Below are positions 8,913-62,302 of a stretch of 64,000 nucleotides of DNA, piece after piece; within the stretch, counting starts at the first letter, position 1, and every line of letters starts with the position of its first letter. Source of the stretch: Arthonia radiata (taxonomy: Eukaryota > Ascomycota > Arthoniomycetes > Arthoniales > Arthoniaceae). The translations under genes and the position numbers were made by a program. Location: NCBI GenBank assembly GCA_002989075.1, contig PSQN01000002.1:1008097-1072096 (forward strand), given 5' to 3'. The notes below the pieces were generated by a model. It did no database searches, was not told the DNA's origin, and saw only the letters and a list, made by a program, of their open reading frames with translations.

Positions 8913-8948
8913 TTGGGGTGTGAGTTAATCGGTTGAAACGGTCTGTGC
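8913..8948 (+). repeat. Left terminal inverted repeat (36 bp)
   Basis: Starts TTGGGGTGTGAGTTAATCGG and ends GGTCTGTGC. It matches the reverse complement of 62267-62302 at all 36 positions and is preceded by TA. Confidence 0.85.
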
Positions 8949-8951
8949 GTC

Positions 8952-9142
8952 TGTCAAGAATTATTGGTCACGTTCAGTCTCAGCCTTCGTGCACTAGCTT
9001 TGGTGTCTTAGAGCGGGCTTGTCATGTCACGATAGTAGATGCTAGCACCCGTCTTGGCACCGGACTTCGTCCAGTTCCAAGCTTCCTTCCTAGCTAGTTC
9101 TCCTACTAAGAATTTAACCAATTTTAACTATATCTTTTAACA
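8952..9142 (+). repeat. Left LTR of H (191 bp), nearly free of RIP
   Basis: Begins TGTCAAGAATTATTGG and ends TTTTAACA. It retains CpA, TpG and CpG steps that the right copy has largely lost. The sequence right after it (GGTTATACGC) is in primer-binding-site position. Confidence 0.88.
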
Positions 9143-9479
9143 GGTTATACGCTTAGTTTAGCAACTTTTAAAGCCTTTATTAGTACTATATAAAGTATTA
9201 ATTAGTAAGGTCATTAGAGTTATATAAAGTTAATAACCTTAAGACTTACTACCGCTATTAAATAGTATTCTCTACTAAAAACCTAAATTATTAAAAATAG
9301 TATTAGTAATTAAGCTCAATTTAGCTATCTCTAGCCTAAAAGGTAGTAAGAACTATAATAGCTGGTTATAGAAGATTAAGCTAGTACTATAATTATATAG
9401 TTTCTTTAAGATTATTACTAGTAAGAATAAAAAGCTAGAGAATTCTAAGAAAGATGTTATTACTAGGGTAGTCTACTAT

Positions 9480-10065
9480 ACTAAGTTAAAGATATAGTAT
9501 AAAGAAGATACTAAAGCCTTTCTTATTATTATTATATACTATAGCGCTACTATCTAGAATATCCTTAATACTAATAAGCTTACTACTATAAAAGTAAAGT
9601 AGAATTACCTTAAGTAGTATAAGAATACTAGCTTTATTAAGCTAATTGAAGTATTATTAAAGCTACATTAGCTTATACTATTAGTCTATAAGAGTAATAG
9701 TAGTATTAAAGAGTTTTATACTTATTTTAAAAATAAGATTAACTAGCTTAATAATCTTAAGCCTACTAGCATTAGTTATATAATTTATTTTACTCTCTAA
9801 GTAATCTAGTTTCTTACTTAGATTCTTATCTATAATAGTAGCTAGGCTAGCCTCTCTATCTTTATTAACTAGAAGCAATCTAAGCTCTAGAAGCTTAGTA
9901 TAGCTAACTAGAGAAGAGTCTTTTAAAGTAATTAAAGCTAGGTAATAGTAGTAATAGTAGAAGAGTATAAAAGATAATCTATATACTTTAGTAATCTATA
10001 TATATAATAGTAGTAGTAATAGTAATAGTAATAGTTAAGATTGTCTATACTATACTATATATAAG
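9480..10065 (+). pseudogene. Decayed gag-like remnant of H
   Basis: The left internal part of H has a spacing of hydrophobic and charged codons reminiscent of the Ty1/copia gag (UBN2 type), but no frame stays open. It ends in TAG/TAA-rich trinucleotide tracts (~9945-10034) just before the G3 insertion. Family assignment is weak. Confidence 0.3.
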
Positions 10066-10531
10066 TATAACGCTAATCGCTAGGAGGACCGAACTAAGGC
10101 TTACTTACCTTATATACTTATCGACCTTAGTAGTAGGTATCTTATATACTAGAGACTAAAAGGTAGGAGAGGTAAGATAGATTATAGAAGGTAAGAGGGG
10201 CTTAACTTAAAGTAGATAGAAGATAAAGTACGTTAATTAAATATAGTTAAGAAACTTATATTTAGATATTAAGTTAATAAACTAAAGTTTATTCTAAGAT
10301 TAGTTATTAGTCTAGCTATATAGTCTAAAGTATATTAGTATATTCCGCTAGAGGACGTAGTAGATGTATAGCTCTATATTTGTTTTAGACATTTTTAACG
10401 TCCTATAGACGTAGTAGATATACAGGTTAGCTATATCTTTAACGTCTTTCCTAATTAGTGCGTCCTAATTTAGAGCTTAGTTTAGCCTCGTATATTTTCT
10501 ATTTAGGTTTAGGTAAGGCAGACTCGTAACT
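10066..10531 (-). repeat. 3' LTR of G3 (~466 bp)
   Basis: Read on the minus strand it starts near GTTACGAGTCTGCC and ends in the family's GGCGTTACA-type terminus (TATAACGC on the plus strand). The R-U5-like ~260 bp is shared with all other chromovirus LTRs here; the U3 is of its own type. Confidence 0.85.
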
Positions 10532-12797
10532 TAAGGTCCCCTCTTTAGGTCAAATTGTCTACGATTGACTATACCTTTGCTAAACTATTAAAACCTAGTA
10601 ACTACGCTACTTTCTTCGTTGCTCTATAAGTTATTATGCCTCGGACTATTAATCGTTAAGCTAATCGTATACGTCGCATAGCTATTATCGAAGCTATTAG
10701 CTCGTTTATAATACCGGCTTGCCCTTCCTACGTTTAGGTTAAGAAAACCTACAAAGTTATTCTTAATTAGACTATCTACGGCTGTTGTACCTAACTAGGT
10801 CGGCGGTGTAGTCTCGTTACTTTAGGAGCTAAGTGTATATTTTTATGCTTGCCTGTTTTACTTTCGAGTAGTTTCTAACAATATTCTAGGGGATCGTTTG
10901 TTGGCGCTTATCTAGAACAAAAGGTAGCGAAAGAAGGAGCTCAAAAAGGCTCTATTTATACAAAAGGAACGTCTTACTTAGTTAGAGCGTAAACTAGCTG
11001 GTCGTGTCCGTCGCGACAAACAGTTTAAAGAGAAGGAGCGGGTAGCGTCGGAGTCTTGTTTTAGCGTCTCGACTAGGTTAAAATTTATTAATACTAGGTT
11101 AAACTAGGGCAGTCTTAATTCGGAGTAGCATACGGTTATATTGTACTTAGCTAGTAGCGGTACTTCCGGTAGTGCTATAGAAGGTCCTAGCAGTAGATTA
11201 AATATTTAACTAGTTCCTACTAGTTTTCGTATTCGGAGTATTCCTTCTATTTTACGAGATATTAGTCCTTGCCTCTATATTATCGGTATGCTTGTATCGC
11301 TTCTACCTTGTATTTAGGTTCTTAGTTCTTATATAGGATCTCTAGGTTAGGTCGTTCTACTTCTTAGAAGTAGACTAGTTTTAATAGCGCTACGTAGAAT
11401 ATAGAATATATTCTTATTGTCCTTAGGAGTTCGAGTTTAAATATTATAGGTCCTAATTGCTATAAGATTCTAAACGGTCCTATTTTAGTATAGTTAAGTT
11501 TTTTGCTTAGTCTAATAAGTTTTAAGTTTCTTATAAGTAAATAAGCTCTTTTCCCTTCCTTTATGCTTATATTTAGGTTAGTTCTTAACTTGTTATACTA
11601 TTTCTTTATACGTTCGTTAATAAACTTGCTATCGGACTTTAATTGCTGGTATAGGGTTTTTATATTTGTTGCTATTTGTATAGCAGTGTCGTTTTATAGA
11701 GTATTCTAGAGTTGTCTGCCCTAAAGAGGGTAATAGCCGTATAAGGCGTAAAACAGAGTTATTTTGGTAGTATTGTTTTTAGTATTATTATACGCGGCCT
11801 ACGCTACTAGCAACAGCTGTACCTTATTATTCTATTAATAGTTAATATATGCTCGTAGATACTATTTAAGGGTTTAGTTTATTCTTTCTGTTTGTCTATC
11901 TGTTTGTAGATAGAATAACGTAGATATTTTTTGTTTTGTTCCTAGTTGTTGTATTAGAGATATCTAAAATCGTAAGACAAATTTTTAGTCTCTATCTAAA
12001 ACGATTCTTTGTGGTTAAACGTAGTTAGCTAGGATAATCTAAAGGAATATATATACTGACTGTTCTAAGTTACTAGCTTCCTTATAGGGTACAAAGTACG
12101 CGTACTTTGTTAGTTTATTGTATATAAATAGAATAGCATTGTAAGATACTCTTATAAGTAGATCCTTAGAGATTAGTAACTTAGTAATAAAGTCTAGTAA
12201 GACTATATACTATAGTCTCTCGGGTATTTCTAATAGCTATAGCTTACCGTATAGTAAATATCTTAGGTACTTGGTCCTTACGTATATATTGTATTCTTAG
12301 ATATAATTTTCGACGTAGTGTCGGATTCTTAGGATATAGTAGGTTCTTATAATCTTTTTAATAGTATTGTCGATACTCTTATATCCTTTTGTTAGGTTAT
12401 TATAGTATTTACTAATAATATATTGGATTAGATTTCTTAGAATATAGATTTTGCCTTAAAATTCGTAATAGCCCTTATTATTCTTAGTTAATTCTAGGTG
12501 TCGTTTCTCGTTTTTCTAGTAGGTTTTAGGGTCGTTTAGAATATCTAGAATTCGGCTGTCTAGTTCGATAATAAACTCGGTTGTTATAGCTAATTAATTG
12601 TGTCTAATCTCGTTATTATATTCTTAGAATATTACGTGCTCGACGTATTCCTTATTATTAAGGTAATCTAGACGTCGGCTTAGAGCGTTAGCTCTATCGT
12701 TCTCGGAACCTTTCTTATAGATAATAATAAAGTCGTATAGAGCTATAGTTTCCAACTATCTAACTTATCTGCGGTTAAATTTCTTTGTTGTTATAAA

Positions 12798-12993
12798 TAT
12801 AATCTAGGTATAGGGCAGGAAGCATTTAGATAGCAAAAAGGGTCTAAATAGGTTCTACTAGTATTTAAGCTAATTATTAAGGAAACTAGAAAGAGATACG
12901 TCTACTAGAGAGAAGATATCCTCCTAGAATTATAGCGTTCCTAAATAGATAACATTCTGTTCTAATTCGCTATTAGAACGTCTATATATTATA
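12798..12993 (-). repeat. 3' LTR of B1 (196 bp)
   Basis: Matches 20614-20809, 38938-39133 and 54050-54245 in length and order; differences are RIP-type transitions. Confidence 0.88.
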
Positions 12994-13641
12994 ACTACCT
13001 TCCCTCTTAAGGAGGATCGCCCTCGATCTAGGTGCAATTTACTATCTCTATCGTACCTTCTATTTATTGTCTTACGTAGAGCAACAACCTTATTAAAAAT
13101 CTGCTAACTTATATCTACGTTTAGTTAGAAAAAGAGTAATGTTGCTTACTATTATTCTATACGTCGTTTAGTACTAGTTTTCTGTAGCATTGAGTTATAG
13201 TACTAAGCTTTACTTTTAATTTAAAGCTCCCGAGCCTAAGTTATAAGCTTAGTAGTAAGGTTTTATATTATTTTTACCTAATTTTATATTCTTTTATATG
13301 CTCTTATATACGCTTTTACCGATTAATTGCCTCTATAGGTAGTAGCAACCTATATAAATAGGCTTCTTTGCTTCTAAATTAGTATCTATAGGTAGAAGCT
13401 TTATTATTAATATCTAACAATAGATATAAAATAAGGCTCTTACTCTTTTAAACTTTCTCTTTCTTTCTTTAATATTATTATACTCTTCTACTTAGCTTAT
13501 AAGCTTCTCTTCTTTAGTAGGCCTTTATTTCTTTTCTTAGATAATAAGTTTATAGCTAATCTAATATTGAATTACCTCTAACTTACCTTTATAATCTCTA
13601 CTATATTAGATTTTAACTCTGTTAATAAACCTACTACTAGA

Positions 13642-13884
13642 GTGGGCTCTCTTAAAGCGCTAACTCGCTACTTAACTTACAGTATTAAGAACTCTAAAGC
13701 TACCGTTAATCTTAAAGCTCTTCTTTATAACGCTTATAAGAAGAAAGCTTCTAAGGTTACTTTACTAATTTCTAAATTATCTATAGCTTCTTCTAGTTTA
13801 TACTCTCTTAAACTAGATAGCGTATCTCTAACTTCTATAACTTCTTATAAGTTTACTATCTCTTATTACTTTATTCTAGTCTAA
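13642..13884 (+). other. Open frame antisense to B1, 3' region
   Basis: About 80 codons open on the plus strand while B1 itself reads on the minus strand. The product is Lys/Ser/Leu-rich with no domain I know. The related frame lies at the same place in B2, where it is split by the G1 insertion (39743-39775 and 47066-47300). Persistence in two copies hints that it is an original part of the family, but it may be only a shadow. Confidence 0.35.
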
Positions 13885-16800
13885 CTATTAGTATTCTAGC
13901 TTATTAAAAGTATTACGTCCGTAAAGATAACTCTAATAATAATAAAATTATTTATTCTCTTTATTACTGCGGTACTACTTATAAGCCTAAGTCGTCTATA
14001 AAGTCTTGCCGGTTTACCTCCTCGAATCCCGCTTTTTACGCTATATCTACGTTAATTTAGTCTTAGCTAGAGGCTTACGTCTTAGTATACTACCGTTATA
14101 TAAAGGCCTTATTTAGCGATATAGCTATATATAGTAGTTCTTCTACGAACTCTAATTTTAAGTATTATAAGGATTAGACCTATAAGTAGCCTAAGGAATA
14201 GTATACTAAGTATACTCGCTATACTAGTATTAGAAGGTTAGAAGATAAGTATAAGATAGTAAGTCTAATACTCTTCTATCTTAGATACTAATTAACTCTA
14301 TATTAATATATACTAGGTCTCCGCTTAATAGAGATATACCTATAACCTTCTTATACGCGCTAACTTTTTCTTAACTTCTAGTAAGAACGTCTAAGATAAT
14401 AAAGAGTCTTTCTATAATAACTATCTTACTCTACTTCGTACCTTTTATATTTAGCTATAGGCTTAGTAGCGCGGTTTAGATACTAAGTCAATTAAGTAGG
14501 GTAATACTAATAATTTTAAGTGTATTAAGGCGCTACGCTAGAGCTTCGATTCTAGTATAGGGTTGTACGGCCCTTAGCCGTCTATAAATAAGACTTCTTA
14601 TAAGCTAGCTATAGTAGATCTAGTTAATTAAATTTAGAACCGTATTAACGGTAGTCGCGGCTAAGTTAAATAGTATTATACCGCCGATCTATACTAACTT
14701 TAGTACTAGTTTGGATAGTCTTTCTATAGTTTTCTACCTTTTGTTTAGCTAGAGTTTAGTCTGTACGAGTAGTTTTCCTTAGCTTATCGGAATAGTTCTA
14801 TATTTTCTTTCTATATAAGTCTTATTTTAGCTTTTTTATAGCTTAAGCTTTATAATTATATATAAATAGTCTTAGAGTTTAATACTATACTAATTCTATA
14901 TTCTAAACTATACTCAAGGTATTCTACCTTCTATTCGGCGTTATATTGTAGGCTAATTATATAGACTTATAGTCTCTTCTTATCTATATTGTCTAGTTTA
15001 CCTTAGACGCTTGCCTCTCGACTTAGTACTTTTACGCTTTTTAAATTCTTTAAGAGTATTAGAGTCTTTAAGATATACCCGCGGCTCTATCGTATTATTT
15101 ACCTCTAACTACCCCTACTACTTAGTCTAATACTAGTCTTTATTCTTAATCTTAAAGCGAATCGCCTTAATAGGCTATTCCTTACTACTATTAATCTTAA
15201 CTAGACTAGGCGGTTCCGTACCGGGCTAGTAGCAATATAGCTCTAGTAAGGATATATAGAAGATAGAGTAGATACAGTAGAAGTCTAGTAGTATTAGCTA
15301 GTAACCTTATTTACCTACTTTCTTAAGAATTCTAAATAGTCCTAAGCTTCGATTATTAAGCTTCTTTATTAGCCTCTTTATTTTAAGGTTCTTTAACAAT
15401 AGCAGCACTAAGTTATCTACTATATAGTATTTTAGTATATACTTAGTATTATACTATTTTGTCTATAAACACTAAGCTTTCTTTAGCTACTACTTTATTT
15501 CTTATTAGCGGAGAAGACATTCTTCTATGTACTTAACTACTATAGGATATTCTAGCCTAGGCTACCTCTTTCCTTAACAAGAGATATTCTTGCCGATAGA
15601 AAGGTTATCTAGCTTAACTACAGTATAGTACCAATTTAGCGGCGGTACGCCGTCTAGTACGTTTATAACGTAACTAAACGTATATTTAATTAGTAAAATT
15701 TTTATCGATAAATAAACTTTTAAATTATACACAAAAGTAGCTTCTTCTAGATACTTATACTAATTATCTTAATCTTAAGAGATATAGATACGTAGGTAGT
15801 TTTTAAGCTTCTAGTTCTAACGCTCGGTTTAGCTATTAGTTTAAAGGGAAAACGCTATACTTAACCTTTATTTTACAGCTAAATACTAGTAGAAGGTACT
15901 CTAATATAAGCTAGTAAATATAGATCCTCTATTAGACAAGAGGCTTCTTAGGAATCCTAATGTTTTTACTTAGTGTTTATAAAGTACTTCCGCTAGCTCT
16001 ATAGTATTTATAGTTTTACTAACTAGAATATAGGTTATAAACTTAGAGAAGCGGTTTATAACTATAAGAATTAAATTAACAATGTCTCTGTTCTTTAAAA
16101 GAACTATCGGTAGTTTAATAATAAAGTTTAAGAATAGGTCCTTAAAGGAGCTAATCGGGGCCGGTATCGCTACTATTTCGCTATATAGTTTATACCTCTT
16201 TACGGCTGTCCGTTAGTATATATTATATTTAGTAATAAAGTTCTTAATATACGTTACTATCTTTTCTTATATATATTTATATCTTAGAATTTTAAGGGTC
16301 TTCTTAATCTTAAAGTAGCTAGTAAGCTTATTATTATAATTTCTACTTATAATTTTAAGCTTTAACGTAGAGTATTTTAGTATCTAGATTTTACTATCTT
16401 AGCGCAATAACTTATAGCTATCAATTAACTATTTTATATACTTTAGAGACTCGGAATTCGAGTTAGATTCTATTAAAGTATCTAAGTCGATTCGACTCGT
16501 ACGGTGCTTTATTATACCGGCTTAACGGTAATCTACTACCGTTTCGTTACTCTACTAACTTTTAGTTCTAGCTAATAATTTTAACTCTAATACTTTCTAC
16601 TTTATAAACGCGTCCCCTTATTAGGCTTCTAAGATTAAGGCTACAAGACCTCGAGAAGTATTATTATAAGCTGTTTTAAGAGTAGTAGCTATAACTATCT
16701 TAACTAATAATACGAGAGCTACTAGAAAAGGCTCTATATTAGTAGAGAAAAACGGATACGTTTCTTGCTTCTAGGTATCCTATAAAAGGTCTATATTTAA

Positions 16801-19800
16801 CTCTAATTTACCTCTAACTTAGACTATAGTCGCATCTAGAATTTAAGGTTAGTAGCTCAACCGCTAATAGTATTTAAACTAATCTTTGAGTAATATAATT
16901 AAGGTAGCAATTATACCTTCTTCTAGACTAGAGAGCTTCTCCCCGGTACTAGGCAAAGTAGTACCTCTCCTAAGCTTCTACTATAGGCTTAGTAATATCT
17001 TATTAGTATTATCTTTTTTTGCTCTACGTAGGTTTTTATAATCTAAACGGCGTAACGGCGTGTCTACTAGGTTCTTACTACCCGTATAGTATAGTATTTT
17101 AAAGTTAAATACTAATAGATCTTCTACCTAGCGTACCTATTAGCGAGACAATACTTTTATTGTTATAAAATACTATAGATTATTGTAGTCTATTACAACC
17201 TTTACTAGATACTATATACTAATAAGGTAATAGCGCTAGTACTTAAAGCTAGTCTATATTGCTATAAGCTCTTTATTATAGGTATTATATTTTAGCTTAG
17301 TGTCTATAAATTTCTTTAAAAAGAATACTACCGGATATAGATATATATCTACCTTATTATTAGTACTAGTCCGGACGGTGTCCGCTATATCTAATATAGA
17401 CAAGCTTAAGTTAATATTTAACGGTAGTGTTAATCGACTATCTTCCCTTAGCTAAAGTAAGATATCTACTATTATAAAGTCTAATACGTTAGTTATTAAA
17501 ACGATCGATAGTATTAGGTTAAAGGACTTTAGCACTAGTATATTTATTAAGGCTTGCTTTAGCGCTTTAAAAGCTTTTTATTAGGCTTTGCCCTAGATAA
17601 ACTTAATATCTTTCGTTAGTACGTTTATTAGCGCTATAATGCGGCTAAATCTATAAATAAATCGCTAATAGAAGTTTACGAATTCTAAGAAGAATAGAAT
17701 CTGCTTTACGGTAGTAGAAACTAGCTATTTAGCTATAGTTTGTACCCTTTTTAGGTCTATTTTAATACTATCGACTCCTATAGTAAACCCTAGGAAAGAA
17801 ACCTTAGTAGTATAAAATTAATACTTAAACAGCTTTATAAATAAACCCTATTTATAGAGCCTTTATAGAACTTCTTTAATATAGCCTTTATAGCTTTCCT
17901 TATCTTTAGAGAAAATTAAGATATTATCTATATAAACAATATATACAGTATCAATAAGATTACCTATAGCTTTATAGATATATATCTAGAACATAGTAGA
18001 GGCGTTTACTAGTCTAAAAGGTATTACTAGGTATTTATAGTACCTATATTAGGTATAAAACGCTATCTTTTACTTATTCTCTTTATAGATATAGATACGG
18101 TAATAGGTATTATAAAGATTAAGCTTTATAAATACCTTTAAGCCTTATAGCTAATTAAGAATCTTAGAGACTAGCAGCAATATATAGCGATTTTTTATAG
18201 TTATATTGTTTAAACCGTAGTAGTTAATATATAGTCTTAACAATCTATCTACCTTAAATATAAATAGAACCGAAGTACCTATCGGACTAGTAAAGGGTTA
18301 TATCTACTCTTTCTTAATTATAGTATTTAGATACCTTTAGAGCGTCTTTAGCTTATTCTACGATATAGGGTAGATTAGCTTATACAGAGGTTCTATACTA
18401 TTCTTAAGCTTAATCTTATAAGTATACTTACTAAGCGGCGTAAGCTTACTTAATAGTTCTTTAGAAAAGATATCTTTATATTTAGTGTACTAAGAAGGAA
18501 GCTTATTTCGCTTCTCTACTTTCTTAGACTCGCTATCTAGAATCTAGTTTAGTAGTAAACTAACGTCTAATAGAACCGCTATTTAATACTTATAACGTTT
18601 ATCCGCTTCTATCTATAGAATTATAGAGTAGTACTATTCGCCTCTTTATAAATATACTAAAATTATATCTTTACTAATAATCTTAATAAATTTAGCTTCT
18701 ACTACCCGTTCTTTGGGCGTAGAGAGGTTTCTCTAAGTAATTATTCTTATTACCTAGCTAATCTAGGGCTTAACTTACTTAACCTATAGGTATCCTAAGA
18801 CAAGGCTATATTCTATAAAGTTAGCTAAATATAGATAGAGTTAGTAATACTGTTTCTCTCTATATACGTCTCTTACAGTTATATTTACGTTATATACGCT
18901 ATAGAGCTATAGCTTATTTTTATTAAGAAACTTAGTATATAGGAGCTTTACTCTATATAATTTTTGCTACCCTCTTTTAAGTATAATACAATAATTAATA
19001 AGATTAATCTCTATACTAAAATCTACTAGTGCGAGAATCTCTTACAGCAACCTACTTAGCTGTACCGAGACTTTAATTTATCCTTACCGTTAATTAACAG
19101 CTCTAAGCTTTAGAGACGCAAGGCTTACTCTTAGGGTCTATCGTTTTTCCGCCTAACTAGCGTTAAATTAATACTAGTTTGGGGCGTAGTATATTTAGTA
19201 GTATAATACCCTTTCTAATTATATATAAAGTAGGTAATATTTACCTTACTATATATTAACCTTAGTTGCCTCTATACGGTAGAGCTATTATCTCTTTATC
19301 GGACTAGTAAGTTACCTCGTTCTTAGTATAAACTACCTTGTCTATAGCCTAACCCCTATAGGGATGCTCTAGCGTTATAACTACTATAGTTTATACCTAA
19401 TCCGCTACTAGAGCAATTTTAGTTTATATTAGTAATATAGACGTTTTACGATATACTACGATTAATATTTATATATTAACAAACTTTCTTTAGAAGCTTA
19501 TTTATGTCTTTAAGTAGGTTTTCTAAGAGACCTTACTTAATTAGCTTCGCCTTAATTTATAAAGATAAGCGCGTATAGTAGAATACAGCCTAATTTAGGT
19601 CTAGTATCTTGCTACTTAGTAACTTAGTTTCTTTATTCTATAAAAAGCTTAGAAAGTCCTTAAGCTTCTACGTTAAACTCTATATTAATATAAAGAACTT
19701 TTCTATATTAGCTATAGTAGCTATAGCTAGGTCGACGATATATTCTATTATCTATTCTTTAAAGTATACCTATAGGTAGAGCGACGTCTTCTCTTTATTT

Positions 19801-20613
19801 TCTTTAGTATAAGTTTGCTACCTATCTACTAGGTCTCTAAGGAGTCTCTAGACGTACTATATAATAATATAAACGTTATTGGGGTCCGATACGTTAGCTA
19901 TCTAAAATCTTTTCTTAATAGTCTAAGTTTATTAAGTATCTATAGAGCTTATAGCTCTCTTAAGCTTAGACGTCTCTTTCTTAAGAAGCTCGTTAATCTA
20001 GCTTTAAAGGCTTAAATCGCTCTATAGCTACTTACTACTAGCTTCTAAATTATAGATAGACTAAAGCTTAACTTTAAGTATTCGCTTTTCGAGCTTAAGC
20101 TTCTTAATAGTATACTGTTACTACTATACTAGCAGTTCTTATCTTAGCTTTTATATCTTAACGCTTAAGAAGGCGCTAAAGAGAGATTCTTTGCGGTTAG
20201 AGCCTTAGTAAGCCCCTTTATCGTTGTTATTATTTTAGTTTAGACTATTGTTCTTCTTAGTTTATAATCTACTCGACGTCTGTTTGCTAGCTTATAAGCT
20301 CTCTTACTTATTATTGTTGTTAGATTCTATATAAGAGTCCTAGTCTTCTTTAATATTAGCTATATTTTGCTACGCTCTATATTCTACTTATACAGCGGAT
20401 ATAAAGCAACTACCGTTGTATACTTAGTTTCTTACTTATTCTCTTTAAATACGGTACTTACTAGCACCGGCTATTAATTAATTTTAATATTATTTATTTT
20501 AACATATATATAGATTCTTGGCTATACTTAGTTATACTAGGCTAACCTCTAAGCGACGTCGATAAGGTACCTAACTGCTAGCCGCCCCCCTCGTAGGTTT
20601 AAAATAATTAGAA

Positions 20614-20809
20614 TATAATCTAGATATAGGGCAGGGAGCAGTTAGATAGTAAAAAGGGCCTAAATAGGCCCTACTAGTATTTAAGCTAATTATTAAGAAG
20701 ACTAGAAAGGGATACGTCGACTAGAGGGAAGATATTCTTCTAGAATTATAGCCTTCCTAAATAGGTAACATTCTGTTCTAATTTGCTATCGGGACGTCTA
20801 TATATTACA
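20614..20809 (-). repeat. 5' LTR of B1 (196 bp)
   Basis: Same 196-bp repeat as 12798-12993. The C-rich stretch GCCGCCCCCCTCG lies just inside it (~20580), as in B2. Confidence 0.88.
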
Positions 20810-22421: not shown

Positions 22422-22892
22422 TATTACAGATACTAGCTCTAGACGGCCTAGCGTATATTTAAGTATTAACTACCGCTAGTTATCTTAGCCCTACTAGTAT
22501 TATTCCCGACTAAGCCTATAAAACTGCTATAGGCATTATTAAACAAGATAGCTATAAAGGCCTATATTCTCTATAGACCTAATATATATATTATTAGGTT
22601 AACGCAAGTAGAGGAACTTCCCTATGTACCTTAAACTATATAGCTAGACTAATAGCTAACCTTAAAATAAACTTTAGTCTATTAATTTAATATCTAAATA
22701 TAAGTTTCTTAATTATATTTAGGTAATATACTTTACCTTCTATCTATTTTAGTTAAGTCTCTTCTACCTTTTATAATCTATTTCGCCTCTCCTACCTTTT
22801 AGTCTCTAGTATATAAGATACCTACTACTAAGGTCGATAAGTATATAAGATAAGTAAGCCTTAGTTCGGTTCTCCTAGCGACCGGCGTTATA
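22422..22892 (+). repeat. D: solo LTR (471 bp) of the chromovirus family
   Basis: A single LTR with no body, flanked by AATTT (22417-22421 and 22893-22897), inserted in G3. It is the same U3 type and length as the LTRs of F (471 bp) but in the opposite orientation. It formed by recombination between the two LTRs of a former full element. Confidence 0.9.
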
Positions 22893-23401: not shown

Positions 23402-23872
23402 TATAACGCTAGTTGCTAGGAGAACCAAACTAAGGCTTACTTACCTTATATACTTATCGACCTTAGTAGTAGGTATCTTATATGCTAGAGACTAAAAGGT
23501 AGAAGAGGTAAGATAGATTATAGAAGGTAAGAGAGGCTTAATAGAAGTAGACAGAGGATAAAGTATATTACTTAAATATAGTTAAGAAACTTATATTTAG
23601 ATATTAAATTAATAGACTAAAGTCTATTCTAAGGTCGGCTTATAGTTTAGTTATATAGTCTAAGGTATATAGAGAAGTTCCTCTATATCTATTAACCCGA
23701 TAATACCTATATTAGGTTTATAAAGAATATAGGTCTTTATAGCTATTTTGTTCAATAATACCTATAGCGGGTTTATAGGCTTAGTCGGGAATAATACTAG
23801 TAGGGCTAAAATAACTAGCGGTAGTTAATACTTAAATATACGCTAGGCTGTCTAGAACTAGTATCTATAATA
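23402..23872 (-). repeat. 3' LTR of F (471 bp)
   Basis: Reverse-complement relative of solo LTR D; a purine tract lies just inside it at ~23875-23890. Confidence 0.88.
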
Positions 23873-26800
23873 TAATCCCCCCTCTTTTAGTTAAATTGTC
23901 CTCGATTAACTCTTAGCTTGTTAAATACCTATAAGTTATATATCGTCCCTTCTTTTATAACTAATCTATAAGTTGCTATATCTTATATAAAGTCTATTAC
24001 TTTAGGTTCTAATAAAAAGTATAGCTAATACCTATTAATTAAAGCCTACAGTATTAAAATACTTCTTATTTTAAATATATATTAACTAAGGAAAAGTATA
24101 TAGTTTAGTCTAAGAAGGTAACGTATTTAGTATATACTTAGAATAGGAAGAGTTATAATTTATAGGTATCGATAGTAGATAGTATACCTAGTTGCTATCC
24201 TTCTATAATATTTAAAACTAACTTAGTTATAGCGCGTTTAGTTTATTCTTAATATTCCTCTTAGTTAGCTGCCCTTTAGCGTATAAAGCGCTAATTATAT
24301 ACGTTAAAAGCTTAGATAGCAGTATTAGTTGTAGCTATATAGCGTAACCGATTTAAGGTCTAGAAGTTAAAAGAGAAGGTTAAGAAGACTCGTACGCAGA
24401 TAGTAGCGAAGTTAGCTTAGAATAAATTGTTAGAATAAGAAGAGTTTACTACGTTGATAGCTAGTAGCAATATATTTAAATGTTTAAGTAGGTTATCTAT
24501 TAATTTTTAAGGTAACTCCTATCCGGAGTTAGATAGTAGTCCTGTAACGTAGTTAGCTAGCTTGTTTAAGGATAATCTAGATACTAGTAAAGTATACTAG
24601 ATAGTAAATTAGAGTATTAGTGCTACTACGACTAATTAATATTTTAGTTCTAATATTGTCGAATAGTGTCTTTATAGTTAGTTAGGTTTCGTTCCGGTTC
24701 CTATTAATTTTTATATTTAGAGTATCCTTTCTATTTTATAAGATACTGTCGTTTACCTTAGTATTGTCTATAAGCTCGAATCGTTTTAACCTTATACTCG
24801 GGTTCTTAGTTATTAGAAAGGATTTCTAGGTTAGGTCGTTCTACTTCTTAGTAGTAGGCTAGTTTTAATAGCGCTATATAGAATATAGGATATATTCTTA
24901 TTATCTTTAGGAGTTCTAGTTTAAATATTATAGATCCTAATTACTATAAGATTTTAAACGGTTCTGTCTTAGTATAGTTAAGTTTTTTACTTAGTCTAAT
25001 AGTCTTTATATTTCTTATAAGTAAGTAAACTCTTCTCCCTTCTTTTATGCTTGTATTTGGGGTAGTTCTTAATTTATTATACTATTTTCTTGTACGTTTA
25101 TTAATAAACTTGCTGTTAGACTTTAACTACTTGTATAGGGTTTTTATGCTTATAGCTATACGCGTAGCTAATTCGTTTTCTATATTATTTTATAGTTATC
25201 TTCCCTAAAGAGGGTAATAGCTATATAGAGTATTGAACAGAGTTATCTTAGTTATATTGTTTCTCGCATTATTGTACGCAGCTTACGCTACTAGTAGTAA
25301 TTGTACCTAGTCGTTTTACTAGTAGTTAATATATGCTCGGAGATACTATTCTAGTATTTAATTTATTTATTCTATCTGTCCGTCTGTTTGTAGATAGAAT
25401 AACGTAGATATTTTCTATTTTGTTTCTAGTTATTATATTAGAGATATTTAAAATCGTAAGATAAATTTCTAGTCTCTGTCTAAGATAATTCTTTATAGTT
25501 AACTATAGTTTGCTAGGATAATCTAAAGGAATATATATACTAATTGTTCTAAATTGCTAGCTTCTTTATAAGGTACGAAGTATACATACTTTATTAGTTT
25601 ATTGTATATAACAAGGATAGCGTTATAAGCTACTTCTATAAGTAAATCCTTAGATATTAGTAGCTTAATAATAAAGTCTAGTAAGACTATATACTATAGT
25701 CTCTTAGGTATCTCTAGTAGCTATAGTTTACTGTATAGTAAATACCTTAGGTACTTAGTTCTTACGTATACATTACATTCTTAAATATAATTCTTAACGT
25801 AGTATTAGATTCTTAGGATATAGTAGGTTCTCGTAATCTTTTCTATAGTGTAATTAATACTCTTGTGTCCTTTTGTTAGGTTATTATAGAAGTTACTAAT
25901 AATATATTAGATTAGATTCCTTAGAACGTAGATTTTACCTTAAAATTTATAATAGCCCTTATTATTCTTAGTTAATCCTAGGTGTCGTTTCTCGTTTTCC
26001 TAGTAGGTTTTAGGGTCGTTTAGAATATCTAGGATTCGGCTATCTAGTTCGATAACAAACTCGGTTGTTATAGCTAATTGATTGTATCTAATCTTATTAT
26101 TATATTCTCGGAATATTATATACTCGACGTATTCCTTATTATTAAGGTAATTAGGTTGTTAGCTTAGAGCGTTAGCTCTATCGTTCTTAGAACCTCTTTT
26201 GTAGGTAATAATAAAATCGTATAGAGCTATAGTTTCTAACTATCTAACTTATCTACAGTTAAGTTTCTTTGTTGTTATAAAGTAAGTTAGGTTCTTATAG
26301 TCTATATATACTATAACTATATAGTTTGCTTCCTCTAGGTAAGCTCGCTATATCTCGAATACTGCTATAATAGCTAAAAGCTCCTTGTCGTAAATATTAT
26401 AGTTCTGTTCTATAGGTAATACCTTTCTTAAGTAGAAAGCTACTAGTCTAAGCTTTCTTTCCTTATTGTTTTAACTTATATATACTCTAATCGTATAGTC
26501 TAACGCGTCTATTTCTATAATAATCGGTAAGTTAGGGTTAAATATTGCTAGTACGGGTCTAATCTTAAAAGCTTCCTTAAGCTCTTTAAATACTAATTAT
26601 TCTTTTTACGTCTAAGAGAATTCTATCGATTATTTTGTCTGTTAAGACAGCGGTGCTATAATTCGGCTAAAGTTAGATATCTATTGCCTATAGTAGTTAA
26701 CAAAACTAAGAAACTATTGTAATTATCTTATATTCTTTAGTATAGACTAGGTTAGAATAGATTAGATCTTTAAATCTTCTATTTAGAGACTGTACTCGGT

Positions 26801-40225: not shown

Positions 40226-40267
40226 CTTTAATAGACTCGCTACAAAAGTAGAGAAAGTAAATTAGTT

Positions 40268-45840: not shown

Positions 45841-46310
45841 ATATTGAAACTAGAATATTAATTGGTCGTAGCAGTACTAACACTCTAATCTACTATCTAG
45901 TATGCTTTACCGGTACTTAGGTTATTTACAAACGAACCAGCTTACTATATTAGTAGCCTACCACCTAACTTTAGAAACAGATCGTTACAAAAATCTATAC
46001 TTAGGCTACTCGGCACCTCTACGATATTACTATTAAACATAGCCGCCAGCTATTCTTCTTCAAACAATATATTATTCTAATTCATTTTGTTCTACGCCTA
46101 GATACACAACCTTTTGAGCTCCTTCTTCGAATCTATAACCGCCGCTTTAATAACTTTACGCTGCCTTTTCGCCGTACGAACGACTTCCTTCTCTTCCGTT
46201 AAACGCTTACGTTGCCTCTAAAGGGCATTCAACGCTTATAAGTACTGAGAACAAATACTTTGAGCTAAAAACAAGTTAAATTAACACAAACAACAAATAT
46301 AAGATAGAAA

Positions 46311-46520
46311 CTAACTATCCTTTAACAACGAACGAACGTCACACGACTTTTTATCGCGAGTACACACAAAATACGATGCCTTCCTAGACTTTAGAACACA
46401 CTTCTTACCTAAGTAAGAGTAACGGGAACACGGAGGCATCTCTCGACTACAGACTTTAACAAGGACGGTATTAATTTTAAGCGCTTTATTAGCGTTAGGG
46501 ACTTTCTTAACTTTAAGCAT
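46311..46520 (-). other. Cys-rich open frame antisense to G1, 3' region
   Basis: About 69 codons open on the minus strand between the chromodomain and the 3' LTR of a plus-strand element. The product is basic, with Cys spaced as in a small zinc-binding module (CSRYSYLGKKC ... CTRDKKSCDVR). The matching region of G2 lies at ~60.07-60.28 kb. It may be an extra antisense gene of the family; its function is unknown. Confidence 0.4.
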
Positions 46521-46615
46521 AATGACTTACAGAACTAAATTTACTACAGAAAGACGACAAGGTTTTAATGTCTCTAGGGCCGTCGAGGACGACTAGCCTT
46601 AAAGAGGGGACCTTG

Positions 46616-47065
46616 TGTTACAATCTTACTATGTTAGGCTAGTACAGGGCTGAGCGCAGCCAGCCTTATTAGAGTATTATATAGCATACCCGACGACTCT
46701 AATATAGCGACGTTAGCAACGTCGCTATATCGCAATAGGATTCCGACCACGCGACAAAGAAAGTATTAGAACCGTCGGACACAGAGAAATATACCTATAT
46801 ACCTTAGACTATATAGCTAGACTAATAACTAACCTTAGAATAGACTTTAGTCTATCAACTTAATATTTAAATATAAGTTTTTTAACTATATTTAGGTAAC
46901 GTACTTTACCTTCTATCTACTCTAGTTAAGCCCTTCTTACCTTCTATAATCTGTCTCGCCTCTCCTGTCTTTTAGTCTCTAGTACACGAGATACCTACCA
47001 TTAAGGTCGATAAGTACATAAGGCAAGTGAGCCTTAGTTCGGTCCTCCTAGTAACCGGCGTTATA
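46616..47065 (+). repeat. 3' LTR of G1 (450 bp)
   Basis: Pairs with 39776-40225; followed by CTGCT. Confidence 0.93.
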
Positions 47066-50000
47066 CTGCTGCTAGAGCGAGCTCTTTTAAAGCGCTAACT
47101 CGCCGCTTAACTCGCGGCATTAAGGACTTTAAAGCCGCTATTAATCTTAAAGCTCTTTTTCGTAACGCCTGTAAGAAGAAAGCTCTCAAAGTTGCTTTAC
47201 TAATTTCTAAATTATTTATAGCTTCTCTTAGTTTACGCTCTCTTAAACTAGGTAGCGTGTTTCTAACTTCTACGACTCCTTGTAAGTTTACTATCTCTTA
47301 TTACTTTGTCTTAGTCTAAATATTAGCATTCTAGCTCGTTAAAAGCGTTACGTCCGTAAAGACAACTCTAACGATAATAAGATCGTCCGTTCTCTCTATT
47401 ACCGCGGTACTGCTTATAAGTCTAAGTCGTCTATAAAGTTTCGCCGGTCTGCCTCCTCGAATCCTACTTTTTGCGCCGTACCTACGTTAATCTAGTCCTA
47501 GCTAGAGGCTTACGTCTTAGTATGCTGCTGTTGCATAAAGACCTTATTTAGCGATATAGCTGTACATAGTAGTTCTTCTGCGAACTCCGATTTTAAGTAT
47601 TATAAGGACTAGACCTATAAGTAGCCTAAGAGATAGTACGCTAAGTATACTCGCTATACTAGTGTTAAGAGGTTAGAAGATAAGTATAAGATAGTAAGTC
47701 TAATACTTTCTTGTCTTAAGTACTAATTGACTCTATATTAACGTATACTAGGTCTCCGCTCGGTAAAGACGTGCCTGCAACCTTCTCGTACGCGTTAACT
47801 TCTTCTTAACCTCTAGTAAGGACGTCTAAGATAACAAAGAGTCTTTCTGCGACAACTATCTTACTCTACTTCGCGCTTTTTACGTTTAGCTATAGGCCTA
47901 GTAGCGCGGTCTAGGCACTAAGTCAGTCGAGTAGACCGATACTAACGATTTTAAGCGTATTAAGGCGCTACGCTAGAGCTTTAATTCTAGTATAGGGTTG
48001 TACGGCCCTTAGCCGCCTACAAATAAGACTTCTTACGAGCTAGCTATAGTAAATCTAGTTAATTAGATTCGGGACCGCGTCGACGGTAGTCGCAGCTAAG
48101 TTAAGTAGTATTATACCGCCGATCCGTACTAACTTTGACGCCAGTTTAGGTAGTCTTCTTGTAGTTTTCTGCCTTTTGTTTAGCTAAGGTTTTAATCTGT
48201 GTAAGTAGTTTTCCTTGGCCTATCGGAATGATTCTATATTTTCTTCCTATATAAGTCTTATTTTAGCTTTCTTATAGCTTAAGCTTTATAATTATATATA
48301 AATAGTTTTAAAGTTTAATACTATACTAATTCTATGTTTAGAACTGTACTTTAGGTAATTTACCTTCTCTTCGGCGTTATATCGTAAGCTAATTACGTAG
48401 GCTTATAGCTCTTTTTTATCTACGTTGCCTAGTTTATCTTAGACGCTTGCCTCTCGGCTCAGCGTCTTTATGCTTCTTAAATTTTTTAAGGGCGTTAGAG
48501 TCTTTAAGATGTGCTCGCGGCTTTATCGTGTTATTTGCCTCTAACTACCCCTGCTACTTAGTTTAATACTAGTCTTTGTTTTTAACCTTAAAGCGGATCG
48601 CCTTAATGAGCTATTCTTTATTACTATCGACTTCGATCGGACCAGACGGTTTTATACCGGGTCGATAGCGATATAGCTCTAGTAAGAATACATAGAAGAC
48701 AGAGTAAATGCGGTAGAAGTCTAGTAGTGCTAGCTAGTAAGCTTATTTACCTACTTTCTTAAGGATTCTAAATAATCCTAAGCTTCGATCGTCGAGCTTC
48801 TTTATTAGCCTCTTTGTCTTAAGGTTCTTTAACGACAGCAGCACTAAGTTATCTACTGCATAGTGTTTTAGTATGTACTTAGTATTGTACTATTCTGTCT
48901 ATAAACGCTAAGCTTTTTCTAGCTACTACTTTATTTCTTGTTAGCAGAGAAAGCGTTCTTCTATATACTTAACTGTTATAGAATATTCTAGCCTAGGCTA
49001 CCTTCCCCCTTAACGGGAGGTGTCCTTACCGATAGAAGGGTTGTTCGGCTTAACTACGGTACGATACTAATCTAGCGGCGGCGCGCCGTCTAATACGTCT
49101 GTAACGCGACCGAACGCATATTTAATCGGTAAAATTTTTGTTAATAAATAAACTTTTAAATTGTACGTAAAAGCAGCTTCTTTTAAATACTTATACTAAT
49201 TATCTTAATTCTAAGAGATATAGATACGTAGGTAGTTTTCAAGCTTCTAGTTCTAGCGCTCGGTTTAACTATTAGTTTGAGGGTAAAATGCTGTACTCAA
49301 CCTTCGTTTTACGGCCAAATACTGGCAAAAGGTGCTCTAATATAAGCTAGTAAATATAGATTCTCTATTAGACAAGAGGCTTCTCGGGAATCTCGACGTT
49401 TTCGCCTAGTGTTTGTAAAGCACTTCTACTAGCTCTATAGCATCTATAGTTTTACTAACTAGAATATAGGTTATAAACTTAAAGAAGCGGTCTACAACTA
49501 TAAAAATTAAATTAACAATGTCCCCGTTCTTTAAAAGAACTATCGGTAGTTTAACAATAAAGTCTAAGGATAGGTCCTTAAAGAGGCCAATCGAAACCGA
49601 TATCGCCGCTATTTCGCTATATAGCTTATACCTCTTTACGGCTGTCTGTTAGCATATATTGTATTTAGTAATAAAGTTCTTAATATACGTTACTATCTTT
49701 TCTTACGTATATTTACGTCTTAGAATTTTAAAAGTCTTTTCGACCTTAAAGTAGCTAGCAAGCTTATTATTATAATTTCTGCTTATAATTTTAAGCTTTA
49801 ACGCAGAGCATTCTAATATCTAGATTTTGCTATCTTAGCGCAACAACCTATAGCTATCGACTAACTATTCTGTATACTTTAGAGACTTGGAGTCCGAGTT
49901 AGGCTCTATTAGGGTATCTAAGTCGATTCGACTCGTACAGCGCTTTCTTATACCGGCTTAACGGCGATCTATTGCCGTTTTGTTACTCTGCTAATCTTTA

Positions 50001-51283
50001 GTCTTAGCTAATAATTTTAACTCCGATACTTTCTGCTTCATAAAGGCGTTCCTTTGCTAAGCTTCGAGAATTAGAGTCGCGAGACCCCAAGAAAAATTAT
50101 TGTAAGCGGTTTTAAGAGCGGTAGCTGCAACTACCTTAACTCGTAATACGAGAGCTATCGAAAAAGGCTCTATATCAGTAGAAGAAGACAGACGCGTTTC
50201 TCGCTCCTAGGCGTTCTATATAAGGTCTGTATTTAACTCCAATCTGCCTCCGATTTGGGCTACAGTTGCGTTCAGAGTTTTAGGTCGGTGGTCAAACCGC
50301 TAATAGTGTTTAAACTAATTTTTAAGCAATATAATTAAGGCAGCAATTACACCTTCTTTTAGGCTAGAAGGCTCTTTTTTAGTACTAGGCAAAGTAGCAC
50401 CTCTCCTAAGCTTCTACTATAGGCTCGATAACATCTTATTAGCGTTATCTTTCTTTGCTCTATATAAATTCTTATAATCTAAACGGCGCGACGGCACGTC
50501 TGCTAGGTTCTTGCTATCCGCACGGTATAGTATTTTAAAGTTAAATGCTAACAGGTCTTTTGCCTAGCGCGCCTGTTGGCGAGACAATACTTTTGTTGTT
50601 ATAAAATACCGCAGATTATTGTAGTCTGTTACGACCTTTACTAAGTACTGTACATTAATAAGGTAATAGCGCTAGTACTTAAAGCTAATCTATATTGCTA
50701 TAAGCTCTTTATTATAGGTATTATATTTTAGCTTAGCGTCTATAAATTTCTTTAAAAAGAACGCTATCGGATATAGATATATATCTACCTTATTATTAGT
50801 GCTAGTTCGGACGGTGTCCGCTATATTTAGTGTAGACAAGCCTAAGTTAATATTCAACGGCAATAGTAATCGGCTATCTCCTCTTAGCTAAAGTAAGATG
50901 CCTGCTATTACAAAGTCTAATGCGTTAGTTATTAAAACGATCGATAGTACCGAGTTAAAGTGCGTTAGCACTAGTATATTTATAAAGGCTTGCTTTAGCG
51001 CTTTAAAAGCTTCTTGTTAGGCTTTGCTCTAAACAAACTTAACGTCTTTCGTTAGTGCGTTTATTGGCACTACGATGCGGCTAAATCTATAGATAAATCG
51101 CCGGTAGAAGTTTATAAATCTCAGGAAGGATAGAATCTGCTTTACGATAGTAAAGACTAGCTATTTAGCTATAGTCTGTACCCTTTCTAGGTCTATTTCG
51201 ACACTATCGACTTCTACGGTGAACCCTAGGAAAGAAACCTTGGTAATATAAAATTAACACTTAAACAGCTTTATAAATAAACC

Positions 51284-51499
51284 CTATTTACGAAGCCTTC
51301 GTAAAACTTCTTTAATATAGCCTTTATAGCTTTCCTTGTCTTTAGAGAAAATTAAGATATCGTCTATATAAACGATATACACGGTATTAATAAGATTACC
51401 TATAGCTTTATAGATATATACCTGAAACGTAGTAGGAGCGTTTACTAGTCTAAAAGGTATTACTAGGTATTTATAGTGCCCGTATCGGGTACAAAACAC
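51284..51499 (-). pseudogene. Reverse transcriptase fragment of B2
   Basis: Open stretch with the classic gypsy RT motifs YLVIPFRLVNAPTTFQ and VYIDDILIFSKD. This fixes the orientation and superfamily of the B elements. It is part of a decayed pol. Confidence 0.9.
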
Positions 51500-54049
51500 T
51501 GTCTTTTACTTATTCCCTTTATAAATATAGATACAGTAATAGGTATCGCAAAGATTAAGCTTTATAAATATCTTTAAGCCTTATAGACGATTAAGAATCT
51601 TAGAGACTAGCGGCAATGCGTAGTAATTCTTTACAGTTACATTGTTTAAACCGCGGTAGTTAACATACAGTCTCAACGATCTATCTACCTTAGGCACAAA
51701 TAGGACTAGAGCACCCGCCGGACTAGTAGAGGGTTGTATTCACCCTTTCTTAATTATAGCATCTAGGTACTTCTAGAGCGTCTTTAGCTTATCCTACGAT
51801 GTAGGGTAGATTAGCTTATACGGAGGTTCTATACTATCCTTAAGCTTAATCTTATAAGTATACTTACTAAGCGGCGTAAGCTTACTCAACAGTTCTTTAG
51901 AAAAGACGTCTTTATATTTAGCGTACTAAGAAAGAAGCTTATCTCGCTTCTCTACTTTCTTAGGCTCGCTATTCGAAGTCCGGTCTAGCGGCAAACTAAC
52001 GTCTAATAGGACCGCTATTTAATACTTATAACGTTTATCCGCTCTTATCTATAGAATCGCGGAGTAGTACTGTTCGCCTCTTTATAAATATACTAAAATT
52101 ACGTCTTTATTAACGATCTCAATAAATTTAGCTCCTACTACTCGTTCTTCGGGCGCAGAGAGGTTTCCCCAAGCGATTGTTCTTATCGCCTAACTAATCT
52201 AAGGCTTAACTTACTTAAGCTATAGGTATCCTAAAACGAGGCTGTATTCTATAAAGTTAGCTAAATATAGGTAGAGTTAGTAATATCGTTTCTCCTTATA
52301 TACGTCTCTTACAGTTACATTTACGTTATAAGCGCTATAAAGCTACAGCTTATTTTTATTAAGAAATTTAGTATACAGGAGCTTTACTCTATACAATTTT
52401 TGCTATCCTCTTTTAAGTACAATACGATAATTAATAAGGTTAATCTCTATACTAAAATCTACTAGCGCGAGGACCTCTTGCGGCGACCTATCTAGCTGTA
52501 CTAAGACTTTAATTCGTCCTTACCGTTAATCGATAGCCTTAAGCTTCAGAAACGTAAGGCTTACTCTTAAGGCCTGTCGTTTTTCTACCCAACTAGCGTC
52601 AAATTAACACTAGTTTGGGGCGTAGTACATTTAGTAGTATAATGCCCTTTCTAATTGTACGTAAAGTAGGTAATGTTTGCCTTACTATATATCGACCCTA
52701 GTTGCCTCTATGCGGTAGAGTCATTGTCTCTTTATCGGACCGGTAAGTTGCCTCGTTCTCGGTATAAACTGCCTTGTCCGCGGCCCGACCCCTATAGAGA
52801 TGCTCTAGCGTTATAACCGCCACAGTTTGTATCCGATCCGCTACCGAAGCGATCTCGGTTTGTATTAGTGTTGCGGGCGTCCTACGATATACTACGATTA
52901 ATATTTATATATTAACGAACTTTCTTTAGAAGCTCGTTTATGTCTTTAAGCAGGTTCTTTAAGAGACCTTACTTAATTAGCTTCGCCTTAATTTATAAAG
53001 GTAAGCGTGTGTAGTAGAATACGGCCCGATTCGAGTCCAGTATCTTGCTACCTAGCAACTTAGTTTCTTTGTTCTGTAGAAAGCTTAGGAAGTTCTTAAG
53101 CTTCTACGTTAAACTCTGCGTTAACGTAAAGAACTTTTCTACGTTAGCTATAGTAGCCGTAGCTGGGTCGACGATACATTCTATTACCTATTCTTTGAAG
53201 TACGCTTATATATAGAGCGACGTCTTCTCTTTATTCTCTTTAGCGTAAGTTCGCTATCTATTCGCTAGGTCTCTAGGGAGTTTCTAAACGTACTAGGTAA
53301 TAACACAAACGTTGTTAAGGTCTAAGACGTTAGCTATCTAAAATCTTTTCTCAATAGTTTAAGTCTATTAAGTACTTACAGAGCCTATAACTCTCTTAAG
53401 CTTAGGCGCCTCTTTCTTAAGAAGCTTATTAATCTAGCTTTAAAGGCTTAAATCGCCCTGTAGCCGCTTGCTACTAGCTCTCGAATTGCAGGCGGACTAA
53501 AGCTTAACTTCGAGTATTCGCTTTTTAAGCTTAAGCTTCTTAATAGTGTACTACTACTGCTATGCTAGTAGTTCTTGTCTTAGCTTTCGTACCTTAACGC
53601 TTAAGAAGGCGCTAAAGAGGGATTCTTCGCGGTTAGAGCCTTAGTAAGCCCCTTCGTTGTCGTTATTGTTTTGGTTTAGACTATTGTTCTTCTTAGTTTG
53701 CGATCTGCTCGGCGTCTGTTCGTCGGCTTATAAGCTCTCTTGCTTATTGTTGTCGCCGGATTCTATATAAGAGTCCTAGTCTTCTTCGATGTTGGCTATA
53801 TTTTGCTACGCTCTGTATTCTACTTGTGCGGCGGATATAAAGCGACTACCGTCGCGTACTTAGTTTCTTACTCGTTCTCTTTAAACACGGTACTTGCTAG
53901 TACCGGCTATTAATTAATTTTAATATTATTTATTTTAACGTGTATACAGAGTCTCAGCTATACTTAATTATACTGGGTTGACCCCTAAGCGACGTCAATA
54001 AGGTACCTGACTGCCGGCCGCCCCCCTCGTAGGTTTAGAATAATTAGGA

Positions 54050-54245
54050 TGTAATCTAAGTATAGGGCAGAGAGCAGTTAGGTAGCAAAAAGGGCCTAAA
54101 TAGGCTCTACTAGTGTTTAAGCTAATTATTAAGGAGACTAGAAAGGGATGCGTCTACTAGAGAGAAGATATCCTCTCAGAATCGCAGCCTTCCTAAATAG
54201 ACAACATTCTGTTTCAATTCGCTATCGGAACGTTTATGCATTACA
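54050..54245 (-). repeat. 5' LTR of B2 (196 bp)
   Basis: Pairs with 38938-39133; followed by ACTAC and the rest of G2 gag. Confidence 0.9.
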
Positions 54246-60989: not shown

Positions 60990-60994
60990 ATAAG

Positions 60995-61768
60995 TAAGAT
61001 AGTTATTAGTAACTATATTATTTCTATAATTATTTAGAGATTACTACTTAGAGCTAGAGACTTACTAAATAAATTAGTAAGTTTATTAGTAAGAACCTTA
61101 CTAACAGTAATATATTTATTAAGAAGATAAGAGATAGAGATATATAATTAATTACTATATCTACTTTCTTCTATACTTACTATACCCTTATATAAGATAT
61201 TATTAATAAGCTTATATATCTATAATCTATCTACTATAGTGTTAGTAAGAGTAATATAGCTTTAATTAGTACTTAATATTCTATAGTAGGTACTACTACT
61301 AGAAGGGCTTTATCTATAATATATTTAGTATACTAGCTATAATAGTATTACTACCTCTTCTCTCTTTAGTATAAGGCTATAATACTAATACTGGTAATAG
61401 GCCCTTAGTAAAAGGCTACTCCTTAGTAAAAAGCTACTAGTAAAAGGCTACTTTTAGTAATAAGCCCTTAGTATAAGGCTATATATATATAGTAGAAAGT
61501 ATACTAGTAGAAAGCTAATAACAATATAAAATTAAGTATTAGTATAGATATGTTTAGAATAATTTAAAGATAATACCTCTAGTATAGAATCTAGCGTTTT
61601 AAAAGACCTTTAGTATATAGACAATACTAGATAGATTAAGATAAGAGTTAGCTTCTCTTATAGAGATTAATAAGGGTAATATACTTAGAAAGTTTAGAGC
61701 TAGTAGTAGTAATATAGAAGGAGTAATAAATCTTACTATTGTTATTATAGGCTTTAACTAAGGGAGTA
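60995..61768 (+). other. Right internal part of H
   Basis: AT-rich, RIP-mutated sequence with no recognisable coding domain. It contains the short tandem array at 61369-61480 and ends in a purine tract before the right LTR. Confidence 0.5.
61369..61480 (+). repeat. Imperfect short tandem array inside H
   Basis: Several diverged copies of a core like TTAGTAAAAGGCTAC/TTAGTATAAGGCTA follow one another. The array is either original to H or grew after insertion. Confidence 0.6.
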
Positions 61769-61959
61769 TGTTAAGAATTATTAGTTATATTTAGTCTTAG
61801 CCTTTATATACTAGCTTTAGTACCTTTAAGCAAGCTTAGTATACTACAATAGTAGATACTAGCATCTATCTTAGTACTAGACTTTATCTAGTTCTAAGCT
61901 TCCTTCCTAGCTAGTTCTCCTACTAAAAATTTAACTAATTCTAACTATATCTTTTAATA
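61769..61959 (+). repeat. Right LTR of H (191 bp), RIP-mutated
   Basis: Begins TGTTAAGAATTATTAG and ends TTTTAATA. Aligns without gaps to 8952-9142, with transitions at most differing sites. Followed by GCATC. Confidence 0.88.
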
Positions 61960-61964
61960 GCATC

Positions 61965-62266
61965 TTTAATGATTTTATAACCCTTATCTTATACTACTTC
62001 CTTTACTTAAACTAGCAATTTTAGGCACAAAATCTTGCCAAATAGGCCTTTTTATTAGTTTAAGACAAGAAGACTTAGTTTCTCTAACACTGTAGCTCGA
62101 ATAGTAGGAGAATACTAGAGAGTTATAATACGTATAGCTTGTTGTACTACTCTCTCTGGCCTTAGCCCTTGTAATGCTAAATAATAGCGTTGCAAAGGTA
62201 CAGCTTTCTTATATCTTACCTCTAGAATAGGTACTTTAATGGTGATGCAAAATGGAAAACAAAAAA
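61965..62266. mobile_element. Interior of the TIR element, right of H
   Basis: About 300 bp between the H target site and the right inverted repeat. AT-rich and mildly RIP-like up to ~62240, then normal. A part reads on the minus strand like a decayed coding stretch, but I could not assign it to a transposase family. Confidence 0.45.
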
Positions 62267-62302
62267 GCACAGACCGTTTCAACCGATTAACTCACACCCC
62301 AA
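62267..62302 (-). repeat. Right terminal inverted repeat (36 bp)
   Basis: Exact reverse complement of 8913-8948; followed by TA. Confidence 0.85.

Follow-up and report, generated by a model that had tools for sequence, protein, structure and literature searches.

Locus and nest architecture

The window, the whole stretch of 64,000 nucleotides of Arthonia radiata DNA analyzed here, lies on contig 16 of a genome that was searched as 33.5 Mb in 16 contigs. Window composition shows a repeat block with elements of 25–38% GC between flanks of ~52% GC. The block consists of nine LTR insertions inside an outermost element with terminal inverted repeats (TIRs), and they are nested to a depth of five (H, G3, G2, B2 and G1). 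All nine could be bounded at single-base resolution by self-comparison of the window and base-level reading of the ends.

The outermost TIR element (8913–62302, net 377 bp, no strand assigned) has its termini at 8913–8948 and 62267–62302, with TA on both sides. Within it lies H (8952–61959, net 2079 bp, also without assigned strand), an LTR element with LTRs at 8952–9142 and 61769–61959 and the target site duplication GCGTC/GCATC. H contains the G-family LTR element G3 (10066–60989, reverse strand; duplication ATAAG), which is host to four further insertions. These are the B-family LTR element B1 (12798–20809, reverse strand; ATAAA), whose strand and type were taken from its homolog B2; D, a 471 bp solo LTR of family G (22422–22892, forward strand; AATTT); the G-family element F (23402–36031, reverse strand; TATAG); and G2, also of family G (38228–60828, forward strand; CTCTA), which sits inside the right LTR of G3. 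In F, too, the right LTR is occupied, here by I, a copia-type LTR element of 5406 bp with 505-bp LTRs (30500–35905, forward strand; CTTGT). G2 contains the B-family element B2 (38938–54245, reverse strand; ACTAC), and B2 contains G1 (39776–47065, forward strand; CCGCT/CTGCT), the innermost G-family element.

Each of the nine LTR insertions is flanked by its 5-bp target duplication, exact in seven cases and with one transition each in the other two. Direct LTR pairs are present in all eight full elements and align with 78.5–91.9% identity; those of F and G3 are interrupted, and each was aligned in two parts. Net lengths, calculated by taking away whatever is nested inside together with one target copy per insertion, match within families: 7190, 7219, 7288 and 7290 bp for G3, F, G2 and G1, and 8012 and 8013 bp for B1 and B2. 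The initial annotation had described nine LTR insertions at five levels inside a TIR element and had listed their duplications; ends, LTR pairs and duplications bear this out at base level, and the family lengths it gave for inside-out removal were reproduced. The nest is thus real, and the order of events can be read from it.

Uninterrupted sites

For each insertion, 60 bp of host sequence from either side were joined with one target copy kept, and relatives of the joined sequence were sought in the window. Contiguous paralogs were found for seven of the nine insertions, all of them gap-free: three each for B1, D, F and B2, two for I, and one each for G2 and G1. Since only one target copy was kept, the lack of gaps fits duplication of exactly 5 bp and not a chance repeat. 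No uninterrupted paralog of the H or G3 site was found within the window. Relatives of H elsewhere in the genome comprise one sizeable partial match on contig C14 and a short match on contig C10; the former was considered as a test of the G3 site and rejected, because it covers part of H only and does not span that site.

Element families

Pieces of the elements were searched separately against Pfam. Matches to RVT_1 and SH3_Tf2-1 were found in G1, with RVT_1 about 3.4 kb from the element start, and F has a chromodomain match at 24650–24796 on the reverse strand (27.9 bits against a cut-off of 25.1), calculated to lie about 5.8 kb from the element start net of I. Family G therefore shows the Ty3/gypsy arrangement of RVT_1 with a chromodomain downstream, albeit with the two domains in different copies (G1 and F). 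Scoring of 150 of 195 chromodomain candidates gave at least 143 matches in the genome, most of them with stops, and none in G1, G2, G3, B1 or B2. An RVT_1 piece is present in B2 (51287–51505, reverse strand), and I has both RVT_2 (PF07727) and a copia-type gag (PF14223), the combination used here to recognize Ty1/copia elements. No Pfam domain was found in the two pieces of H that were searched, which together with its net length of 2.08 kb makes H probably non-autonomous or deleted. For twelve of the 17 element pieces, either nothing matched at E 0.01 or the matches were weak and under the family cut-off. LTR matches in the genome number at least 47 for G, 40 for B and 43 for I (a first look gave 788, 259 and 516 candidates, of which 40 per family were scored), so all three families are multi-copy. 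Overall, the nested elements appear to be Ty3/gypsy and copia retrotransposons mutated by RIP.

The form of the outermost element agrees with its initial designation as a TIR element, in that its 36-bp arms are identical at 36 of 36 positions and TA stands on both sides, but searching the genome for its body gave no second copy. Nor did the genome yield multiple copies sharing its ends and a TA duplication, as a TA-type TIR transposon or MITE would be expected to have. Contig C2 has a single related terminus, with 31 of 37 bases matching, at a border between AT and GC, and it is preceded by AA and not TA; two word matches on contigs C1 and C5 (3 mismatches, in GC-rich DNA) were set aside because only 20–21 bases match. 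The failure of the search to find a second body, and a right part with no stop-free piece longer than 74 aa, would also suit an inverted repeat that arose by chance or secondarily at the edge of the island, with no transposon involved. The identical arms, the paired TA and the terminus on C2, even though AA-preceded, make that reading unlikely, and the outermost element is likely, but not proven, to be a transposon.

RIP-like mutation

Differences between the LTRs of the eight pairs amount to 323 transitions and 14 transversions, with CpA accounting for only 109 of the 323 transitions. When the comparison is confined to G internal pieces with an invariant next base, the mutated fraction is 0.52 at CpA, 0.27 at CpC, 0.16 at CpT and 0.15 at CpG; an excess of C-to-T changes with a CpA bias, as sought for RIP, is thus present. 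CpA makes up 4–18% of CpN in all nine LTR insertions versus 28–29% in the flanks. In the right part of the TIR element it is 25% and not depleted. The predominance of CpT among the remaining CpN had prompted us to consider an unusual RIP context that spares CpT, an idea that was dropped in view of the CpA-led order at invariant next bases.

At four DNA-methylase loci in the genome, the open frames are at least 544 aa long. One of these has a BAH match of 28.7 bits, just under the curated cut-off of 30.8, and its closest PDB relative is 9baq_A, a DNA (cytosine-5-)-methyltransferase (E = 6.7e-133). RIP takes place in sexual crosses and depends on RID. CpA-type signatures are described in ascomycetes with RID (PMC4352252). 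The C-to-T/CpA pattern, together with the four candidate methylase loci, points to RIP as the likely cause of the mutations in the elements.

Order of insertions and relative age

The nesting order begins with the TIR element, followed by H, then G3, then B1, D, F and G2, with I after F, B2 after G2, and G1 after B2. This is a partial order only, as nesting does not order B1, D, F and G2 among themselves. D is placed by nesting only. Transversions within LTR pairs number 2/191 in H, 4/465 in G3, 3/196 in B1 and 4/470 in F, and 1/505 in I, 0/450 in G2, 0/196 in B2 and 0/450 in G1 (0/1096 for G2, B2 and G1 together). Grouped accordingly, H, G3, B1 and F have 13/1322 versus 1/1601 for I, G2, B2 and G1 (Fisher p = 0.0005, from small counts and with the old/young split chosen post hoc). 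The value is 0.0009 if an adjacent TA/AT change in F is counted once, and 0.0018 if a terminal-base change in G3 is dropped as well. The distinction between the two sets is not clear from LTR transitions (163/1322 versus 160/1601, p = 0.05).

The internal pieces of the G elements (4220 columns) provide a second comparison. Private transversion-type changes are 46 in G3, 21 in F, 8 in G2 and 14 in G1, so that G1 exceeds G2, against a simple age order. Among 2:2 splits, 12 join G3 with F and G2 with G1, and the alternatives have 4 and 1. GC content is 28.3% in G3, 29.2% in F, 31.0% in G2 and 34.2% in G1, and the fraction of CpA sites mutated is 0.74 in both G3 and F, 0.40 in G2 and 0.20 in G1. 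In family B, AT-ward differences over three blocks number 787 in B1 and 256 in B2.

We compared 17 ancestor-descendant pairs (D left out), which are not mutually independent. Transversions agree with the nesting in 12, tie in three and disagree in two; for LTR transitions, 15 pairs fit and two do not. With H left out and D included, the RIP index follows the nesting in only seven of 11 pairs once families are mixed, and even within family G both F (0.23) and D (0.13) score a little more RIP-mutated than G3, in which they lie (0.26). Broadly, then, transversions and, within family G, CpA loss track age, with exceptions. The topology and the nest-implied order given initially were right, but G2 had been grouped with B1 and F. 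Transversions and within-family RIP load, not nesting, suggest that G2 is later than F and B1 and belongs to a younger set with I, B2 and G1.

Origin of the nest

We are highly confident that the locus as a whole is best explained by successive LTR integrations followed by RIP-like mutation, in the order given. In a genome like that of a filamentous ascomycete, an AT-rich and presumably heterochromatic repeat island grew as LTR retrotransposons integrated one after another into older elements; such successive integration is shown by the 5-bp duplications, the LTR pairs and the paralogous sites that lack the insertions. RIP-like C-to-T changes, with RIP as their putative agent, then mutated the copies, leaving transitions and CpA loss. 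The order runs from the TIR element through H and G3 to B1, D and F, and then to a later set of G2, B2 and G1, with I in F. The window is repeat-dense, and mis-joined repeats in the assembly might produce a false nest; nine duplications (two with one difference), gap-free paralogs at seven of nine sites and near-equal family lengths make this highly improbable, all the more so as the mutation signals broadly track the nest and the copies in the window are ~10–19% different, hence easily told apart. It is somewhat less improbable, yet still unlikely, that the whole tier of B1, D, F and G2 is contemporaneous and that its differences in mutation load reflect uneven RIP and not age. RIP efficiency can vary, nesting alone leaves the tier unordered, and LTR transition rates overlap (58/450 in G2, 50/470 in F and 18/196 in B1). 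Transversions are not RIP products, however, and it is these that set G2 apart from F and B1 in the LTRs and join it with G1 in the internal splits.

The accumulation of insertions at this locus probably reflects the fact that LTR elements of this genome adjoin AT-rich DNA, almost without exception in our sample: the first 500 bp of host-side DNA are below 45% GC at 53 of 54 sampled LTRs outside the window (36/37 for G, 9/9 for B and 8/8 for I). The sample comprised all 37 full-length G matches listed, some of which are the two LTRs of one element, nine of 38 B matches and eight of 39 I matches. An AT-rich neighborhood agrees with elements integrating into heterochromatin, with genic insertions being lost, or with RIP reaching the flanks. 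RIP may spread into flanking DNA, and a flank could thus have become AT-rich only after the insertion. A more specific possibility, which we regard as open to considerable doubt, is that G elements, guided by a chromodomain to H3K9-methylated DNA, built the nest. F has its chromodomain match and the genome has many more. Farther from the insertions, G copies may also be set deeper in AT-rich DNA than B and I copies, in that any 500-bp stretch of at least 45% GC within the first 1 kb of host side was found at 3/37 G versus 6/17 B and I LTRs (p = 0.02). This difference depends on the cut, being 1/37 versus 2/17 (B 1/9, I 1/8; p = 0.23) at 900 bp and 0/8 versus 6/17 (p = 0.13) for 1.5-kb flanks, and the DNA directly beside B and the copia element I is AT-rich too. 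Moreover, three of the nine insertions (B1, B2 and I) are not G elements, and loss of genic insertions accounts for the same pattern. A first look at loci outside the window had flagged a GC-rich side at 0/8 G, 5/9 B and 3/8 I loci before the host side was assigned; two of the five B flags (L034 and L035) then proved to come from inside the element. These data hint, at most, at the G chromodomain having a role of its own.

Comparison with known nests

In Mycosphaerella graminicola, 78 nested TE clusters of 7.5–63 kb with 2–7 different elements are described; 49 have an LTR base element, and for 35 of these the duplications were verified (PMC4522978). The nest described here resembles them in its LTR base elements, in its target duplications (4–6 bp there, mostly 5), in its low GC relative to flanks and in its CpA-biased RIP (PMC4522978). 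It differs in having nine LTR insertions within a TIR element, every one bearing a duplication of its own and all in a transversion-checked order, and in its five levels as compared with at most three within the base element among the 35 clusters tabulated there (43 others are untabulated; PMC4522978). The initial description of the locus as rare is therefore apt insofar as it is deeper than those 35, but not in the light of 78 nested clusters in one fungal genome. Nests are a known, ordinary feature of RIP-active fungi, and this locus is a well-resolved example, not a new phenomenon.

Nested plant LTR retrotransposons show the same element-in-element structure and nesting-based relative order (PMC6911290). 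Unlike in plants, which are not known to have RIP, LTR-pair dating is distorted by RIP here. The element crapaud of Podospora anserina is likewise a RIP-affected LTR element with a chromodomain, although that work is a study of one element's subfamilies and not of a resolved nest (PMC10787394). It urges care with ages from LTR divergence (PMC10787394), and RIP is noted as a possible source of inflated LTR ages in M. graminicola as well (PMC4522978). Among the titles and abstract openings from a literature search, none reported a nest chronology or transversion dating in RIP fungi.

Where RIP acts, LTR-pair dating is unreliable. A deep nest in which every boundary is fixed gives a separate order of events against which RIP load or transversions can be tested, and this one possibly serves as a calibration point for RIP. 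We tentatively suggest, while thinking it somewhat more apt to be wrong than right, that either RIP adds mutations over successive sexual cycles and so works as a rough, ordinal clock, or an earlier period saw stronger RIP that has since weakened. Both readings draw on the rise of CpA loss in family G from G1 through G2 to F and G3.

Related sequences elsewhere in the genome and features of the left flank

A relative of H, the LTR element at the first level inside the TIR element, is present on contig 14 of the same genome (1619332-1619907) with 73% identity. The internal match to H is directly followed by an H-like LTR, an arrangement that suggests an LTR element of the H type, but shorter. 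On contig 2, a terminus ∼84% similar to the TIR of the nest (687233-687252, minus strand) lies at the border between DNA of 46-65% GC and DNA of ∼20% GC, and is preceded by the dinucleotide AA, not TA.

In the gene-rich left flank, Pfam searches identified an aspartyl protease-like ORF (7188-8591; PF00026, E = 2.2e-6) ending ∼320 bp from the nest; the two other long ORFs searched there gave no Pfam match. Self-comparison of the window shows a tandem repeat with a period of ∼36 bp at 3350-3568 in this flank.
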